Assembly: GCA_961205875.1 (NCBI GenBank)
Contig: OY540812.1
Coordinates: forward strand, 31,939,098-32,003,097
Direction: 5' to 3'
DNA: 64,000 bases
From: Sialis fuliginosa
Lineage: Eukaryota > Arthropoda > Insecta > Megaloptera > Sialidae
The translations under genes and the position numbers were made by a program. The notes beneath the pieces are model-generated. The model did not search any database and was not told the DNA's origin. It was given only the letters and a program-made list of their open reading frames with translations. Below, in pieces: positions 18,125 to 64,000 of the stretch; the first letter of the stretch is position 1; each line of letters begins with the position of its first letter.

Positions 18125-19080
18125 ATACTAATATTATAAATGCGAAAGTGTGTTTGTCTGTCTGTTTTCTGTTTGTTACCTTTTCACGGCTAAACCGCTT
18201 TACCGATTTTGATGAAATTTGGCAGTGAGATAGCTTGCATCCCGAGGACGGACATAGGCTATTTCGTATCTTAAAAATTCAACCCCTAAGAAATTGCAAG
18301 GGGGTGGAAATTTTTTATTTTTTTTTAGTAATTATTATTTTACCCCCCGATACATATGAAGGGTTGTAAGTGGTTTTATTCGATCCGGCGGGAAAAATAC
18401 CACGGGGGCGTAGGTTTCAGGGGGCAAAACAACCCTCTATCTTGCATAGGAGCCGAGATATTTACGATTTTGTATAATGAAAGAAAACTAAAAATAAGAA
18501 AAATTTAATATTTTACCCCCTGTCACATATGAAGAGTTGTAATTGATTACATTCGATCTGGCGGGCAAAAATACTACGGAAGAGGGATTATTAGGGGGAC
18601 AAAACAACCCCTTATCTTACATAGGAGTCGCGACTTATATTATAAATGCGAAAGTGTATCTCTCAGTCTGTCTATTTGTTACCTGTTCACGACTAAACTG
18701 CTTTACCGATTTTGATGAAATTTGGCAGTGAGATAGCTTACATCCCGAGGACGGATTAAGGCTATTTCGTATCTCGAAAATTCAACCCCTAAGGAATTGC
18801 AAGGGAGAGGAAAATTTTTAATTTTTTTTAGTAATTAATATTTTACCCGTTACATATGAAGGGTTGTAAGTGGTTTTATTCGATCCAGCGGGAAAAATAC
18901 CACGGGGGCGGGGGTTTTAGGGCGGAAAAACCCCTCTATCTCGCATAGGAGCCGACACATTTACGATTTTGTATAATTAAAGAAAACTAAAAATAAGATA
19001 AATTTAATATTTTACCCCCTGTCACATATGAAGGGTTTCGAAATCCACGCGAGCGAAGTCGCGGGTAGCAGCTAGTTTAA
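18125..19080 (+). repeat. Repeat family B, tandem dimer
   Basis: The unit begins 'ataaatgcgaaagtgtgttt' at 18136 and again at about 18643, giving a period near 507 bp. Both units carry 'accgattttgatgaaatttg', 'catcccgaggacgga' and 'ttaccccctgtcacatatga'. The dimer ends 'cgcgagcgaagtcgcgggta' and 'gcagctagt'. This is a common insect interspersed repeat, possibly RTE/SINE-related. Other pieces are at 22620, 26545 and 42770-43615. Confidence 0.65.
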
Positions 19081-19099
19081 TATATTCAAGCAAATATCA

Positions 19100-19600
19100 A
19101 TTTAGAAAAACAAAACACGAATTTTTAAAATAAATTTAGGTAAATCTTTGTAAGGGAATATTTTACAACAAAATGTTGTAGACCCATATTATAGGAAATT
19201 TAATGCTCTACAAAAAATATTCTATAAAATTTTCACGTAACATGTGTCGTGCTTGAGATATCTTGAAAAAATAAATATTTTGAGGTGTCACCCCTCCCCC
19301 TTACACACGATTTTGATGGTTTTGAAATGGGACCGTCCTCAAGCCAGACCCAACCATCCGACCAAGTTTCAATAATATCGGTTCAGTAGTTCATGAGTTA
19401 TACGTGTGACAAGGTTTCAGGGGACAGACGGACACACACACGGACGGACGGACAGACAGACACGGAACGAAAAGTGTTTGTCTTGACGTGAAACGGAAAG
19501 ATAAATTTAAAATTTTGAAATCGGAAAACATTTTTTTGTCTCATTCTAAAACGATCACAAAGCTTCTTGTATCTTCGTAATTGCAAGGAAGCAATATTAC
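19100..19600 (+). repeat. Repeat family D (copy 3, 5'-truncated)
   Basis: Matches 51930-52440 over 'tattttacaacaaa...cgtaacatgtgtcg', 'cccctcccccttacacacga', 'cagacacggaacgaaaagtg' and the 3' end 'attgcaaggaagcaata'. Confidence 0.65.
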
Positions 19601-34105: not shown

Positions 34106-35555
34106 TCCCTCTATTATATAAACCGTGAGTATATTTATATATATATATTTGTATGTCTGTCCGGTAGCAATCAATTTATAGCCCGTTAAACCGTTCACTG
34201 GATTTTTTTCATACTTTGCCTGTTTTTAGATTCGTCCTTAATGCAGTTAACAGGCTTATATTCTTATGCAAAACTAGAATAGTTTCTGTGCTGTGTATTT
34301 TTTTCCGAGAAACGACATATAAAATTGGCACAAAATTTTGCTTTCTGACGTTTACTTTGAAATTTAGCAGTTTCGTCACTAGGCTTTTGTTTTTGGAATT
34401 CTTAGAATTTCGTCGGTGTGATTGGTTGAAAATGGGCATTTAGTATGAATTTTAAACACTTCACGTGGACTTGATATTTGCCTGTCATAAACAGTTGTTT
34501 TTTATTTGAAATACGTCAGGGGCGTGTACAGAAATGTGTCAAATTGGTACATTCCAATTAAATTGTTTATAAATGAAAATTTTCACCAAAATTGGTTAGT
34601 ATATTGATGTAATTAGTATAATAATTTATATTTAATAAGAATTACGTCAGGAGCGTGGTTACAAGAACATTTTTTATTGTTTTTTTTCATATAATTGTAT
34701 TAAAATGAAAAAGTTATATTAGTCATTGGGGATTGATGTAATTTGCCCAAAAATTAATATTTATTAACAATTAAGTCAGGTGCGGCGTAGTAAAAAATAT
34801 TTATATTATTTTTTTTAAGAGTTGTATAATAAACAATTTTGAAAATCATTTGATAGTTCAAATATGTAATGTATCAAACAATTTATACTAAATAATTATA
34901 AAGACAGGGGTGGAGTATTAAGGGGAAACAGCAATGAGATATGTTGAAAAATTTTTTTGCGATTTTTAAAATTTATTTAATTAATTCTTTTAGTATTGTC
35001 AGTGGCATCGCATTATAAAATATTTAAAATTGCTATTTTTTAATCGTGACGAAAAAAATTGATTTGATTGAAATTGAACAAAAGTTAAAAACTTAAGAAA
35101 TTTATAAAAATAATAAATAAGTCAAAGTCAGAAGTGTGGTCTTGAAAATTACTTCAACGCATTCTTTGAATATGTTATATGCAAAAAAATATGGAAATTG
35201 ATATTCACAATGATTTTTTGGTAATTTCTTAAAGGTATTATCAAAATTAATGGTAAAGGCATAAATTACGATGTATACGAGGGTCGCAGCCGAAGGCTGA
35301 GACCCGAGTACGTCTGAGGTTAGGGTGATTTGTACATGTAAATAGTAACATTACTGGAAATGTAATAATGATAAATGATTATCACAGCCAAATTCAAGAA
35401 TTATTTACTTATCAGCATTTAAAACAATTACAGTGAAATATTTTATGAAAATTTGATTAGACAAAAGTTAATATAAAAAAATAATTATATTTTACCAATC
35501 AAATGTGGCGCGATAAGGGGTTGGGGCGCGAAGCGCCCAGGGGCAAAGCCCCTAG
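34106..35555 (+). mobile_element. Non-autonomous Helitron, tandem unit 1 (1450 bp)
   Basis: 5' end TCCCTCTATTATATAAACC directly after an A. 3' end hairpin GGGGCAAAGCCCC then TAG (terminal CTAG), next base T, which is the canonical Helitron TC...CTRR structure inserted between A and T. A second stem, GGGCGCGAAGCGCCC, lies just inside. An internal hairpin of the same style (GGTCGCAGCCGAAGGCTGAG) occurs near 35283. No Rep/helicase frame was seen; the short open frames at 34209-34443 on both strands have no recognised motif. Confidence 0.8.
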
Positions 35556-37005
35556 TCCCTCTATTATATAAACCGTGAGTATATTTATATATATATTTGT
35601 ATGTCTGTCCGGAAGCAATCAATTTATAGCCCGTTAAACCGTTCACTGGATTTTTTTCATACTTTGCCTGTTTTTAGATTCGTCCTTTATGCAGTTAACA
35701 GGCTTATATTCTTATGCAAAACTAGAATAGTTTCTGTGTTGTGTATTTTTTTCCGAGAAACGACATGTAAAATTGGCACAAAATTTTGCTTTCTGACGTT
35801 TAATTTGAAATTTAGCAGTTTCGACACTAGGCTTTTGTTTGTGGAATTCTTAGAATTTCGTCGCTGTGATTAGTTGAAAATGGGCATTTAGTATGAATTT
35901 TAAACACTCCATGTGGACTTGATATTTGCCTGTCATAAACAGCTGTTTTTTATTTGAAATACGTCAGGGGCGTGTACATAAATGTGTCAAATTGGTACAT
36001 TACAATTAAATTGTTTATAAATGAAAATTTTCACCAAAATTGGTTAGTATATTGATGTAATTAGTATAATAATTTATATTTAATAAGAATTACGTCAGGA
36101 GCGTGGTAACAAGAACATTTTTTATTGCTTTTTTTGATATAATTGTATTAAAATGAAAAAGTTATATTAGTCATTGGAGATTGATGTAATTTGCCCAAAA
36201 ATTAATATTTATTAACAATTAAGTCAGGTGCGGCGTAGTAAAAAATATTTTAAATGGTTATTTTTTAAGAGTTGTATAATAAACAATTTTGAAAATCATT
36301 TAATACTTCAAATATATAATGTATCAAACAATTTATACTAAATAATAATAAGGACAGGGGTGGAGTATTAAGGGGAAACAGCAATGAGATATGTTGAAAA
36401 ATTGATTTTTTTGCGATTTTTTTAATTTATTTAATAAATTCTTTTAGTATTGTCAGTGGCATCGCATTATAAAATATTTAACATTGCTATTTTTTAATTG
36501 TGACGAAAAAAAATTGATTTGATTGAAATTGAACAAAAGTTAAAAACTTAAGAAATTTATAAAAATAATAAATAAGTCAAAGTCAGGAGTGTGGTCTTGA
36601 AAATTACTTCAACGCATTCTTTGAATATGTTGTATGCAAAAAAATATGGAAATTGATATTCACAATGATTTTTTGGTAATTTCTTAAAGGTATTATCAAA
36701 ATTAAAGGCATAAATTATGATGTATACGAGGGTCGCAGCCGAAGGCTGAGACCCGAGTACGTCTGAGGTTAGGGTGATTTGTACATGTAAATAGTAACAT
36801 TATTGGAAATGTAATAATGATAAATGATTATCACAGCCAAATTCAAGAATTATTTACTTATCAGCATTTAAAACAATTACAGTGAAATATTTTATGAAAA
36901 TTTGATAAGACAAAAGTTAATATAAAAAAATAATTTATATTTTATCAATCAAATGTGGCGCGATAAGGGGTTGGGGCGCGAAGCGCCCAGGGGCAAAGCC
37001 CCTAG
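35556..37005 (+). mobile_element. Non-autonomous Helitron, tandem unit 2 (1450 bp)
   Basis: Starts at the T that directly follows the CTAG of unit 1. It ends with the same GGGGCAAAGCCCCTAG hairpin and a flanking T. Near-identical to unit 1 over its full length, differing by scattered substitutions and small indels, and by coordinates of equal length. This is a head-to-tail dimer with no intervening base. Confidence 0.8.
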
Positions 37006-37275
37006 TTCTTCTTAATATGAGTCCTCATAGCCCTATAACCAGTTGTATAATAACCTAACCGAGACTCTCAACGAGACTTACACCGTGATAATTATATTCT
37101 GATACAACTCTTTATCGACGATGTACCGTTATTTTAGCAACCCATTCATTACCAAAAAAACAATTGAAAGTACCGTTGTGTTATCTAGTATATCATGTAA
37201 AACAATTATACAATTTTAATTAGTCTTAACAAAAATTTCGAGCATGAAAATATATCGAGAAATAATATTTAAAAA

Positions 37276-50590: not shown

Positions 50591-52757
50591 CCGTGTATTC
50601 CAAATCGATTAAGCCATAGGAAATTTAACATAGGGACAATTAGAAATGTTGTAGGAACCTTTGGTCAAATTTAACGATATATCATTGGTGCATTTTGAAA
50701 TGCCGCCACAAAATTTTATAAAATTGCCATTAGTATTTTGATTTCATTTTTATATCTGTCAAAAATTACTAATATTTATTGTAATCACAAAATAATTAAA
50801 ACATTATTCATTCTGATATTATAATTAACTAGTACACGATTAAAGAAAAATTGCAAATGGATACATTTAGGTGTTATTTCTAAGTAAGAGATTTATTTAA
50901 CGTCGAATTTGAGAACTGACCAATACCATTGAGTAACAATACTTCATATTTCAAGCATAGGTAATAAAATAAATAATAATAACTAAAATTAAATTAAGTA
51001 ACGAAAATAAATTAATATGTTTTAGATGGCATAATATGTATCGCAATTTTGAAGAAAGGAGCTGTTTAAAATCCAAACGTAACGTCAGAAGAATCATTGA
51101 CTATAACCGATTCATAAACACATTATATTCAATAATTTAGAAGAACTGAAAGAATATTTGTTATACTTTATTTATTCTTAATGTATTTTTAAAATTAAAT
51201 ATAGTTATTTTTATGTATCCACTGTTTACTGATTTCGTTCCAGTAAAATTTTGTAAGTTTAAATTAGAAATTAACATACAATCATTTAATTTGTGTGTAA
51301 AAAATAAATGCATAAATATAAACTGGAGTATCATAGAAAGTAAAGAAAACATCTGCCAAGTAAATGCACAGTGCTTCCTCGTGCTAAATTCACTAAAACC
51401 GATAGTGTTCAGATAAATTGCCTGGTATTGGTTAACCATTTAATTTTTATACAAATTTTACTAAAAAATCTTAGTTCGAATTTTTTCTTAAAACGCACCT
51501 GAATATTTTTTCATATATTTTTAATTTTTTGACAATTTCAATCTAAATCTAAATTTATGCAAATGTCAAAATGACATTTAAAACGTCAAAGTGACATTTA
51601 AAACGCCAAAGTGACATTTAAAACGTCAAAATTGTTACATATCTAGATGACTGTGGAATAATATGTAAACAATAGAACATGTGAATTAGAGATAAATGAA
51701 TGATGTATCAAATATTAAATTAAATAAAAATATAACATGGTGTCAGGTGTGGGGTCTAATAAAAAAGAAATAATGATCTCTATTTAAAAAGAAGACATAA
51801 AAGAAGACTGAAAATAAAGTGACTGGTATTAAATAAAAATATAACATGGTGTCAAATCAATCATGTATCAAATATTAAATAAAATAAAAATATAACAAAA
51901 ATGACACTTAATATATCCAATCAAATATCAATTTAGAAAAACAAAACACGAATTTTTAAAATTAATTTAGATAAATCTTTGTAAGGGAATATTTTACAAC
52001 AAACGTAGTAGACCCATATTATAGGAAATTTAATTCTCTACAAAAAATATTCTATAAAATTTTCTCGTAACATGTGTCATTCTTGAGATATCTTGAAAAA
52101 ATAAATATTTTGGGGTGTCACCCCTCCCCCTTACACACGATTTTGATGATTTTGAAATGGGACCGTCCTCAAACCAAACCCAACCATCCGACCAAGTTTC
52201 AATAATATCGGTTCAGTGGTTCATGAGTTATGCGTGTGACAAGGATTCAGGGGACAGACGGACGGACGGACGGACGGACGGACGGACACACGGACAGACA
52301 GACAGACACGGAACGAAAAGTGTTTGTCTTGACGTGAAACGGATAAATAAATTTAAAATTTTGAAATTGGAGAACTTTTTTTTTGTCTCAATCTGAAACG
52401 ATCACATAGCTTCTCGTATCTTCGATATTGCGAGGAAGCAATAAAACACAACATAAAATTAAATAAAACATCCAAGATAAAATTACAATAGTATAATTAA
52501 TTAATAGTTTAATTCGTTACTTGCACCAATATGTTCCAAATTCTGCGATGAAAATGTTTTAATTATGATTATTTTCATGATTTTGACAGATATAAAATTG
52601 AAAACAAAATACTGATGACAATTTTATTAAATTTTGTGGCGGCATTTCAAAATGCACCAATGACACATCGTTAAATTCGATCAAAGGCTACTACAACATT
52701 TCTAATTGCTCCCATGTTAAATTTCCTATGGCTTACTACTCAACTTGGAATACACTG
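50591..52757. mobile_element. Inverted-repeat element 3 (2167 bp, TA-flanked) carrying a family D copy
   Basis: Left CCGTGTATTCCAAATCGATT and right, in complement, CAGTGTATTCCAAGTTGAGT. Arms pair for several hundred bases ('gcattttgaaatgccgccac' against 'gtggcggcatttcaaaatgc'). TA at 50589-50590 and 52758-52759. The loop contains family D copy 4. Confidence 0.75.
51370..52443 (+). repeat. Repeat family D (copy 4, longest) with (GACG)n microsatellite
   Basis: TGCTTCCTCGTGCTAAATTC near 51370 and GCGAGGAAGCA near 52430 form an inverted terminal pair. Inside are repeated 'aaatgacatttaaaacgtca' blocks (about 51565-51630), a duplicated 'aaataaaaatataacatggt' segment, and a GGAC/GACG tetranucleotide array at 52252-52290. 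Confidence 0.65.
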
Positions 52758-60711: not shown

Positions 60712-61355
60712 TAGGATTTTTAACTATTAGTGAAATTCATAACGAACAAAATAGGTAGTTAATTTTTGCAATCCTACCAATAGAATTGAAGATATTAAAA
60801 AAAAAACGTCCAGTGATAAGTAGAAAATATTAATCAAAAAATACTTCTTTTTTCCAGTTTATTAAAGAAATTTTTTGCTAATATGACTCCACTAATGAGT
60901 ATTTTTCGATTTCCGTAAGGAATACTAAAAAAGCTTCATTACGTCATAACACATAAAGAAAAAATAACTTTTTTTTGATACAATTACCGAAATAAATCGC
61001 CCACCTTACTTTATAATAACTTTGTATATCAGGAATTCATAACTAAATTTAGCTTATTGTTATGATTTAATATACCGGGTGTCTCATTTTAATTAATACG
61101 CGGAAATAACATGAAATTTTTGCACTTTACGAAGAAATGTTTCAAACAAAATTTATGTTTTTTTAGACGAGAAAACTCAGACTGCTAGGACATTATTAAT
61201 TTTGTCAGTAAATTTTTGATTCAGGAAGTTAAATTCATCGTTCCCTAATGAACATCCTGTATTTTGAATACATTTTCGTTTTCTGTTATAAAAATTACAT
61301 ATTTTTGTATGTTATTTTTTAAAGTTATTTATGTTACCGGCAATGTATGTAATTC

Positions 61356-61395
61356 AGGCATTCTATAGAATTCCTAGGAATTCTATACAATGCCT
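61356..61395. repeat. 40-bp near-perfect palindrome
   Basis: AGGCATTCTATAGAATTCCT followed by its complement with one mismatch, centred on CCTAGG at 61373-61378. Confidence 0.9.
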
Positions 61396-61456
61396 GACGA
61401 TTTCAGGCAAAGTATGAAATATTTGTTTAATAGAAATTTATTATATACTTTGCCTA

Positions 61457-61494
61457 GGCATTCTATAGAATCCCTAGGAATTCTATAGAATGCC
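61457..61494. repeat. 38-bp near-perfect palindrome, second copy
   Basis: GGCATTCTATAGAATCCCTA then GGAATTCTATAGAATGCC, again centred on CCTAGG. Preceded by TGCCTAGGCA (itself a 10-bp palindrome). Between the two palindromes an outer inverted pair (caggcaaagtat / atactttgcctag) brackets 61404-61457. Confidence 0.9.
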
Positions 61495-61689
61495 AAGATA
61501 ATATTAGGAAATGTATGAAATAAAAGACAAAATGATATTAATAAAGCAGATAGGTATTATTTAATTAATTTTAAAAAGTCCATATTCATATTATGTAAGA
61601 TTAAGGTCTTTCATTGTTAAAATAACAGAACCACATAAACAATAGTATTACATTTGATATTTATTATAATAAATAAAATAAATATTATT

Positions 61690-62700
61690 GTTAGTTCAGA
61701 CGCATATTAAGTATGATTTAAAATTATTAAAATAAAAAATAAAAACCTTAGATATTGTTTAAACATTCAATAACATATTAGTCCAGACGTGTATTAAGTA
61801 AGATTTAAGGCCCTTACTGTTAAAATAACAAATTCACAAAAACAATATTGGAACCTTAAATATTATATAATCAATTCAATCAAATATTTGCCCGGGTACG
61901 TATTAAGTGAGATTTTGGGCCCTAAACGTTAAAATAACATATATCCAAAAACAAATCAATAAACACTAGATTATATGTAGTCAACTAAAATTAATATTAG
62001 GCCAGGTGCGTATTAAGTAATATTTAAGGCCCTTATTGTAAAAATAACAAATTCACATAAACATTGTATATAACTTAGATACTATTTGAACATTCAATAT
62101 CATAGTAGTCCAGACGAGTATTAAGTAAGATTTAAGGCCCTTACTGTTAAAATAACAAAGTCACAGAATCAATATTGGAACCTTAAATATTATATAATCA
62201 ATTCAGTCAAATATTTGTCCGGGTACGTATTAAGTGAGATATTGAGCCCTAAATGATAAAATAATATATTTCCAAAAACAAATCCATAAACACTAAATAT
62301 TATGTAATCAACTAAAATTAATATTAGACCAGGCACGTATAAAGTAATATTTAAGGCCCTTATTGTAAAAATAACAAATTCACATAAACATTGTATAAAA
62401 CTGAGATTTAAAGGCCTTAATATTAAAATCACAATTTTATTGAAATAATATTGGAATCTAAAATTTTATTTAATCTGTTAAACTAAATATATGTCCAGAC
62501 ACGTGCTAAGTGGAATTTGGGGTTCTGAACGTTAAAATAAAAAAAATACACGTTAAAAAATACAAACATATTTTCAGGAAAAACATCATAAACATTAGAT
62601 ATTATCTAAGTAGTCTACTAAATTATATAATAGCTCAGACGCGTATTATTTTATATTTAAAACCCTTATAGTAAAAATAACAAATGCACATAAACATTTA
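61690..62700 (+). repeat. Satellite with about 109-bp monomers in an A-B-C higher-order repeat
   Basis: Monomers start gtccagacgtgtattaag (61781, type A), cccgggtacgtattaag (61890, B), gccaggtgcgtattaag (62000, C), then A again at 62109, B at 62218 and C at 62328. Same-type units are about 328 bp apart and more alike than neighbours. Degenerate units flank the array (61695, about 62400, 62493, 62632). Each unit has 'taaggcccttattgttaaaataaca'-like text in its first half (shortened here). Confidence 0.8.
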
Positions 62701-62719
62701 AATATTTTATATTTTAATA

Positions 62720-62956
62720 CTCCCTCTGTCCCATAATACTTGATAGTTTTCGTTTCGTGGCCGCGGCTTAATAAATATATGGCTCTATCTCAATATTTTT
62801 TTTCTTATAAGTTTAATTGAACATACTTCTTTATAAACTACTCTTAAATAAAAATATACTAGCTTTTTTGTCAAAAAATTACTTTAAAGAAACATATACA
62901 GTAATATGGGACAAGAAAAAATGAGAACACTATCAAATATTATGGGACAGAGGGAG
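62720..62956. mobile_element. Stowaway-like MITE (237 bp) with plant-type termini
   Basis: CTCCCTCTGTCCCATAATAC at the left and gtattatgggacagagggag-type complement at the right (tattatgggacagagggag), TA at 62718-62719 and 62957-62958. CTCCCTCCGTYCC ends with TA sites define Stowaway MITEs of plants. No coding capacity. Inserted in the satellite: a degenerate monomer (62632) precedes it and another (about 62970) follows. Confidence 0.85.
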
Positions 62957-62959
62957 TAT

Positions 62960-63060
62960 TAAATAAAATATTAGTCCAAATTCGTATTAAGTATGATTTA
63001 AATACCTTGATGTTAAAATAACAAGGAAACATTATTGGAATCTTACACAATTCAAAATTA
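62960..63060 (+). repeat. Last degenerate satellite monomer
   Basis: 'agtccaaattcgtattaagt' and 'ttgatgttaaaataacaa' match the satellite unit beyond the MITE. Confidence 0.6.
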
Positions 63061-63107
63061 CACTATATTTTTTTAATTGCCAATGAGACATATTTTTATA
63101 AAAAATT

Positions 63108-64000
63108 CGGGCAAGACATACACGAGTGTATGCCATAAGGGTTCCGAAGTACGTACTACGTGGAATGTTTGGAACCACTTACAGGTGCATTTTTAAGTTA
63201 GAAAAAATATAAAAAAGTGTCAAGTTCTACTAATTGAGATCTACATATATTTTGACACCCCACTTGCCTAGATATCAAAATAAACAAATTTATGACGCCC
63301 CTCTCTATAATTCCAATTTGTCGTTGCTAGTCCCACCAAAGCCTCGTTACCAAATTTATTCAGATTTTTTGAACCAGTAGTTACAAAGATATAGGTGGTG
63401 GGGACAATGTAAACAATGCTTTTAGCCCCCTACAGGCGCCATTTTTGAGTTAGAAAAAAAATAAAAAATACTAATATACTAATTGAATTGTATATTTTGG
63501 CATCCCACATGCCTAGATATGAAAATAAAAATTAAAAATTCTATTACACCCCTCCCTATTATTCCAAAATTTAAAATTATATTGTTGACTTTAGTATTTG
63601 TCGTTGGTAGTCCCACCAAAAACTCGTTACCAAATTTTTTTCAGATTATTTGAGCCGGTAGTTACAGAGTTAGAGGGTGGGGAGGACAAAATAAAAAACT
63701 GCTTTTAGCTCCCTACAGGCGCCATTTTTAAGTTAAAAAAAAATTAAAAAATGGTCAAATTCTACTAATTGAGATGTACATTTTGACATGGCACACGTCT
63801 TGGTATACAATTTTTTTGTTTTTTTTTTTGGATTTGCTTTAAAGCCCCCTACAGGCACCATTTTTGATTTAGAAAAAAAAATAGAAAAAAGGTCAAATTC
63901 CGCTTGTTTGGTTATACATTTGAACGTGCAACATGCCTTGGTATAAAAAAAATATTTTTTTTACCTAGCTTTAGCTCCTTATTGTCCCCCCTTAAAAGTT
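63108..64000 (+). repeat. Tandem repeat of 262-285 bp, running off the window
   Basis: 'cttacaggtgcatttttaag' (63177), 'cctacaggcgccatttttga' (63429), 'cctacaggcgccatttttaa' (63713) and 'cctacaggcaccatttttga' (63849) mark successive units. The last spacing is only about 135 bp. Units carry 'tagtcccaccaaa', 'ctcgttaccaaattt' and 'gtagttaca...agatata/gagttagag' (abridged). The first unit opens with 'cacgagtgtatgccataagg' found also at 10269 and, inverted, near 56150. Confidence 0.7.

Follow-up and report, generated by a model that had tools for sequence, protein, structure and literature searches.

The window analyzed here, a stretch of 64,000 bp at C4:31939098-32003097 of a 392-Mb assembly with 20 contigs (14 of these sum to 391.98 Mb), raises the question of how a short element with ends like those of a plant transposon came to lie in an arthropod genome. 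The first-pass annotation placed this element in an insect satellite array, read it as a plant-type Stowaway MITE and proposed either horizontal transfer between plant and insect or an insect mariner lineage that had converged on, or shared, the Stowaway terminus.

Structure of the MITE

The span originally given for the element, 62718-62958, is made up of a 237-bp MITE at 62720-62956 and both copies of the TA duplication. The description of a 237-bp element with CTCCCTCTGTCCCATAATA ends and TA duplications was borne out, with exact boundaries at 62720-62956 and CTCCCTCTGTCCCATAATA as the exact 19-bp inverted ends. The features of the insertion are as follows.

62720..62956, no strand: MITE, 237 bp, non-coding, 29% G+C, 100% identical to copies on contigs C10, C3 and C2
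62718..62719, no strand: left copy of the TA duplication (TSD)
62957..62958, no strand: right copy of the TA duplication (TSD)
62720..62751, + strand: left TIR, 32 bp, the first 19 exact; family consensus CTCCCTCTGTCCCATAATACTTGATAGTTTTC
62925..62956, - strand: right TIR, 32 bp, the first 19 exact
62713..62963, no strand: palindrome TTTAATA / TATTAAA of the target, on either side of the MITE; sequence of the empty site TTTAATATTAAA, with empty paralogues on C11 and C14

When up to 3 mismatches are allowed, the 19-bp end matches twice in the window, compared to 0 matches in 100 shuffles. The inverted repeat spans 32 bp at 94% identity, or 39 bp at 95% once the palindromic target TTTAATA/TATTAAA is included, and the single strand folds into a strong hairpin (z -6.4; 0 of 200 shuffles folded as well). 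In addition, a sub-terminal motif, ATATGGGACA, recurs inside the right end of the MITE (window 62888-62949; 26 bp, 73%). Judged from its sequence, this repetition could be a putative second, partial binding site, or it could be due to chance.

The transposon that carries the MITE

The context of the MITE differs from the insect satellite array that was first described. What looked like a satellite consists of tandem repeats inside a dispersed, TA-flanked transposon of 3.7 kb, and insertion into a satellite is replaced by insertion into this transposon with its internal tandem repeats.

61332..64000, no strand: 3,699-bp non-autonomous TA-flanked transposon carrying the MITE; left end TGTTACCGGCAATGTATG at 61332
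61743..62407, no strand: tandem repeats of ~110 and 327 bp inside the 3.7-kb transposon, the "satellite array" of the first-pass annotation

The transposon extends beyond the window, and its right end would equal window position 65030. Four copies that were read end to end are 3,698-3,712 bp long, possess the ends TGTTACCGGCAATGTATG and are 99.0-99.8% alike. They lie in differing surroundings on C4, C10, C3 and C2, and all are flanked by TA except for one right flank, which is TT. The same two MITE junctions are found in eight copies (L003-L010, including the copy in the window, L004), and the surroundings of these junctions are 98.4-99.8% alike across 2.4-3.1 kb. A ninth copy, L015, has the left junction only, and its MITE ends at base 223. 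Because copies of the transposon are present on several contigs with the MITE in an identical position, the transposon must have spread while carrying it. A MITE riding in another transposon is the source of the eight two-junction copies and of the ninth, truncated one.

Copy number, transposition and age of the family

A genome-wide count of copies, which the first-pass annotation had proposed, found the 32-bp end 145 times in the assembly with at most 3 mismatches (70 + 75; reversed control 0) and the 21-mer end including the TA in 101 exact occurrences (control 0). With two ends per element, these counts suggest a family of ~70 or more copies. A search of the assembly with the MITE returned, as its best 40 places, matches of high identity on many contigs. 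The 71 stretches that were scanned (L016-L086) contain 59 complete elements, and 54 of these 59 have TA on both sides.

The MITE sits at unrelated TA sites. Among the 31 scored copies that do not lie in the 3.7-kb unit, no junction is shared, and none is shared with the window. In two of the 31, one flank partly resembles a segment of this unit (76% and 83%), and six pairs of flanks are partly alike, with none in register at the junction; we take these partial likenesses to be other repeats. To find empty sites, the window's site was used as a query with the MITE deleted and a single TA retained. Paralogues on C11 (92%) and C14 (90%) read straight through TTTTAATATTAAATAAAA with one TA. Their DNA is continuous across the site, and they represent the site before insertion. 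Two further paralogues (79-80%) possess a deletion or a small insertion at this point.

In the family consensus, the inverted repeat of 32 bp is perfect. Divergence from it is 0.8-4.4%, with a median of 3.0%, for 32 copies drawn from the best-scoring places, a figure that leans toward young copies because the 40 places were the best-scoring ones. When 52 copies, including more diverged ones, were compared in an alignment of length variants, the median was 3.5% and the maximum 18.8%. The low divergence of the best-scoring copies indicates that the MITE family is young.

Longer members of the family were also inspected. The 46 stretches around TIR sites (40, then six more termini) all match the MITE consensus at least partly, and in a few of them only the first 30-60 consensus bases are present, followed by other sequence. 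Seven elements measure 374-1242 bp from one good end to the other; each is a MITE with additional DNA inside it, and two of the inserts are palindromic. In L057:123-1301 and L048:368-1364, the interruptions are near-palindromes of ~945 bp at 94% and ~750 bp at 84%, respectively, which are perhaps foldback-type elements. Open reading frames of at least 35 residues in the longer elements were inspected by eye, and a Pfam scan of ten of the 13 with at least 60 residues gave no hit at E 0.01.

The host genome

The insect host assumed in the first-pass annotation is well supported at the level of the arthropods, while its assignment to the insects is likely. The 35-base pattern (TTAGG)7 has 5705 overlapping matches in the assembly (reversed control 0), and among the matches listed a dense TTAGG run starts 1.7 kb before the end of C1, the listed matches reaching to 1.1 kb from that end. 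Chitin_bind_4, a cuticle-protein domain, has 105 matches in the assembly and 0 in 14 control genomes; one of the 105 is at C4:31904574, ~34 kb ahead of the window start. Together, the TTAGG runs and the cuticle domains identify the host as an arthropod. Interstitial TTAGG runs also occur away from the contig end, for example at C1:3172183.

The insect-type aaNAT that was named as the only host gene in the window found little support. One of the three candidate open reading frames matches GNAT domains (E 0.0094 and 0.016, both below Pfam's cut-offs), and the other two match no family. When two of the candidates were compared to the PDB, one had no match and the other a single unrelated match at E 0.54.

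Contamination by plant DNA or a misassembled junction would also explain plant-like ends in this window, and the likelihood of this is negligible. Tens of MITE copies are present on many large contigs, eight copies of the 3.7-kb host transposon possess the identical two junctions, and empty paralogues of the site exist. Moreover, TTAGG runs are found near the end of C1, and genes with cuticle domains are on the window's own contig, C4. Given the many contigs, repeated junctions, empty sites and arthropod marks, this explanation was discarded. The earlier view that contamination is not the source holds, on the basis of the copies, contigs and empty sites. The MITE family is real and native to this arthropod genome.

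Resemblance of the ends to Stowaway and DD39D elements

Stowaway elements are defined, in the available text of PMC1925063, by the TIR consensus CTCCCTCCRT and a TA target. CTCCCTCTGT agrees with this 10-bp consensus at 9 of 10 positions, with the mismatch at position 8. The MITE further resembles the plant Stowaways in its TA duplication, its length of <500 bp, its non-coding and AT-rich sequence, its strong hairpin and its many copies. It differs from them in its arthropod host, in having no mariner-like partner found, and in possessing T where those elements have C, at position 8, among the 100 21-mer matches listed. The end form CCGT has 0 matches in the assembly. Since a plant host is a habit of the known Stowaway members and not a feature of the element, "Stowaway-type ends" is a better term than "plant Stowaway". 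The Stowaway-type ends and the TA target described earlier are supported.

Osmar of rice is a member of the DD39D/Guest/PlantMar mariners. With this group, which also includes Ppmar2 of bamboo (PMC6696609), the MITE shares the CTCCC start of its ends and the TA target. The CTCCC start is called typical of DD39D/GT in the text available from PMC8472432. The same source describes a DD39D/GT element of 2381 bp with a CTCCC start in the bee Lepidotrigona ventralis hoosana, present in 3 copies, none of which is intact; a DD39D element with CTCCC ends has therefore already been published from one bee assembly. In contrast, the present family has no transposase in sight, and the published hosts of the group are plants, a few oomycetes and this one defective bee report. 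The accessible part of PMC7325037 equates the DD39D family with PlantMar, limits it to plants and a few oomycetes, and, some oomycete sequences apart, records no return from plants to other hosts. Similarly, PMC9777934, as far as its available text goes, places GT chiefly in plants and counts it among the families involved in horizontal transfer.

The silkworm elements BmMITE-3 and -8 are short, TA-flanked and from an insect host, as is likely here, and according to the available portion of PMC2997013 their name, "Stowaway-like", comes from the TA target. Unlike the present MITE, they have published ends, GATATGTGTCGTTCG and TATATCGACGC..., without resemblance to CTCCCTC in that portion of the paper. 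An irritans-type MITE of aphids (PMC5490172) possesses TGTCCCA-AA in its inner end, as does the present MITE, while its outer bases are CGAGG compared to CTCCC here. Overall, 12 published aphid mariner and MITE ends (PMC5490172) are identical to the present end at 3-10 of 19 positions, whereas five plant strings agree at 16/19, 17/18, 14/17, 16/19 and 17/19, a contrast that is partly circular, since this motif had been used to find the plant strings.

Judged by titles and the starts of abstracts, 14 of the 15 papers that contain one or another of four variants of the end deal with plants or plant transposons, the remaining one deals with human cells, and none with insects. The plant strings with the end motif include barley miR1436 and jute small RNAs. 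Among the titles and abstract starts listed, no Stowaway family with CTCCCTC ends is described from an insect. The exact MITE end was absent from collections of viral contigs and genome contigs; a relaxed pattern matched two viral contigs once each, which we take to be chance.

Search for a transposase

A provisional sequence of a plant mariner transposase served as a query and matches PF24964 at E 9.9e-20. The PF24964 profile itself had 0 matches in the assembly, which is no proof of absence because the control genomes gave 0 as well. The plant protein gave 40 weak matches in the assembly, the best at 29 bits, nearly all over the helix-turn-helix part and two over the catalytic part (20-22 bits). 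Four of these places were read, and all four contain a helix-turn-helix of the Tc1/Tc3 type above Pfam's cut-off, with DDE_3 in three. Neither CTCCCTC nor GAGGGAG is present in any of these four Tc1-like stretches as read. In tblastn searches of 40 end-flanking stretches (141 kb) with the plant protein and one Tc1-like protein, nothing was better than E 0.17.

The first-pass annotation had also proposed looking for a transposase with matching ends, and none was found in the assembly or in the 40 stretches with the queries used. So the transposase of the MITE has been lost or has decayed, is missing from the assembly, has diverged too far for the queries, or is of another kind. This missing partner is the weak point of any account of the family's origin.

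In L091, L092 and the match places, Tc1-like open reading frames of 372 residues occur at nine places and of 344 residues at nine. From their sequences, the open frames suggest recent activity of these Tc1-like families.

Origin of the MITE family

The best reading, and probably the correct one, assigns the element to a Tc1/mariner MITE family that is young, has ends of the Stowaway/DD39D type and was mobilized by a transposase that has been lost or has escaped detection. A DD39D-kind transposase supplied in trans would have recognized the MITE ends and generated the copies through a cut-and-paste mechanism. This transposase may since have been lost or have decayed, or it may be outside the assembly or have escaped detection. 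One MITE copy entered a tandem-repeat monomer inside the 3.7-kb transposon, which then spread with the MITE inside.

Where such a family came from is a separate matter, and two of the rival explanations, both compatible with this reading, concern origin. Transfer from plant to insect is possible. More specifically, a Stowaway/DD39D element could have passed recently from a plant to an arthropod, either directly or via an oomycete, fungus, virus or symbiont, and been followed by MITE amplification, a proposal that we hold tentatively. It agrees with the youth of the family, with the closer match of the five plant strings (14-17 of 17-19) than of the 12 aphid ends (3-10 of 19), with the nearly exclusive occurrence of the end versions in literature on plants and not on insects (by title and abstract start), and, as far as the available texts of the surveys go, with the restriction of PlantMar/DD39D to plants and a handful of oomycetes (PMC7325037) and the involvement of DD39D/GT in horizontal transfer (PMC9777934). 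However, the comparison with the plant strings is partly circular, no transposase was found, and the assembly contains no end of the CCGT form. Inheritance within the insects from an old arthropod, or invertebrate, DD39D/Guest lineage with CTCCC ends, of which the MITE would be a derivative, is somewhat unlikely. The bee element with its CTCCC start (PMC8472432, in the text available) is a precedent for such a lineage, but it stems from a single species and may itself be a contaminant. The apparent lack of a move out of plants, a few oomycete sequences aside, in the accessible part of PMC7325037 also speaks against it, as does the failure to find a transposase here.

The remaining rival is convergence or borrowing: the ends would merely resemble Stowaway and would belong to an unrelated hairpin mobilized by a mariner or Tc1 transposase of an insect. 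This is less probable still. The inner TGTCCCA-AA shared with the aphid irritans-type MITE and the presence of Tc1-like families with intact open frames in this genome are consistent with it. On the other hand, the outer CTCCCTC is in none of the 12 aphid ends compared, and the four Tc1-like stretches, as read, are without CTCCCTC or GAGGGAG.

It is conceivable, though doubtful, that a plant DD39D/Stowaway element entered this arthropod and that the MITE was then amplified to some 70 copies or more. If true, this would be a jump out of the plant and oomycete world of a kind almost never seen according to the available part of a published survey (PMC7325037), where the PlantMar/DD39D lineage is portrayed as having almost wholly lost the ability to switch back after its entry into plants. 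An amplified arthropod MITE family with PlantMar-type ends provides a concrete test of that claim, through the source of the ends and the transposase that moved them.

Other features of the window

Three further features were observed in the window. The remnant of a mariner-type transposase with an HTH_48 domain (Pfam E 2.1e-9) is present at 1469-1705, with stops downstream. A direct duplication of ~1.46 kb, its copies lying end to end at 96% identity, occupies 34106-37012. Finally, 52252-52307 is a (GGAC)n microsatellite of 14 units, and the repeat surrounding it is common to 19077-19596 at 90%.
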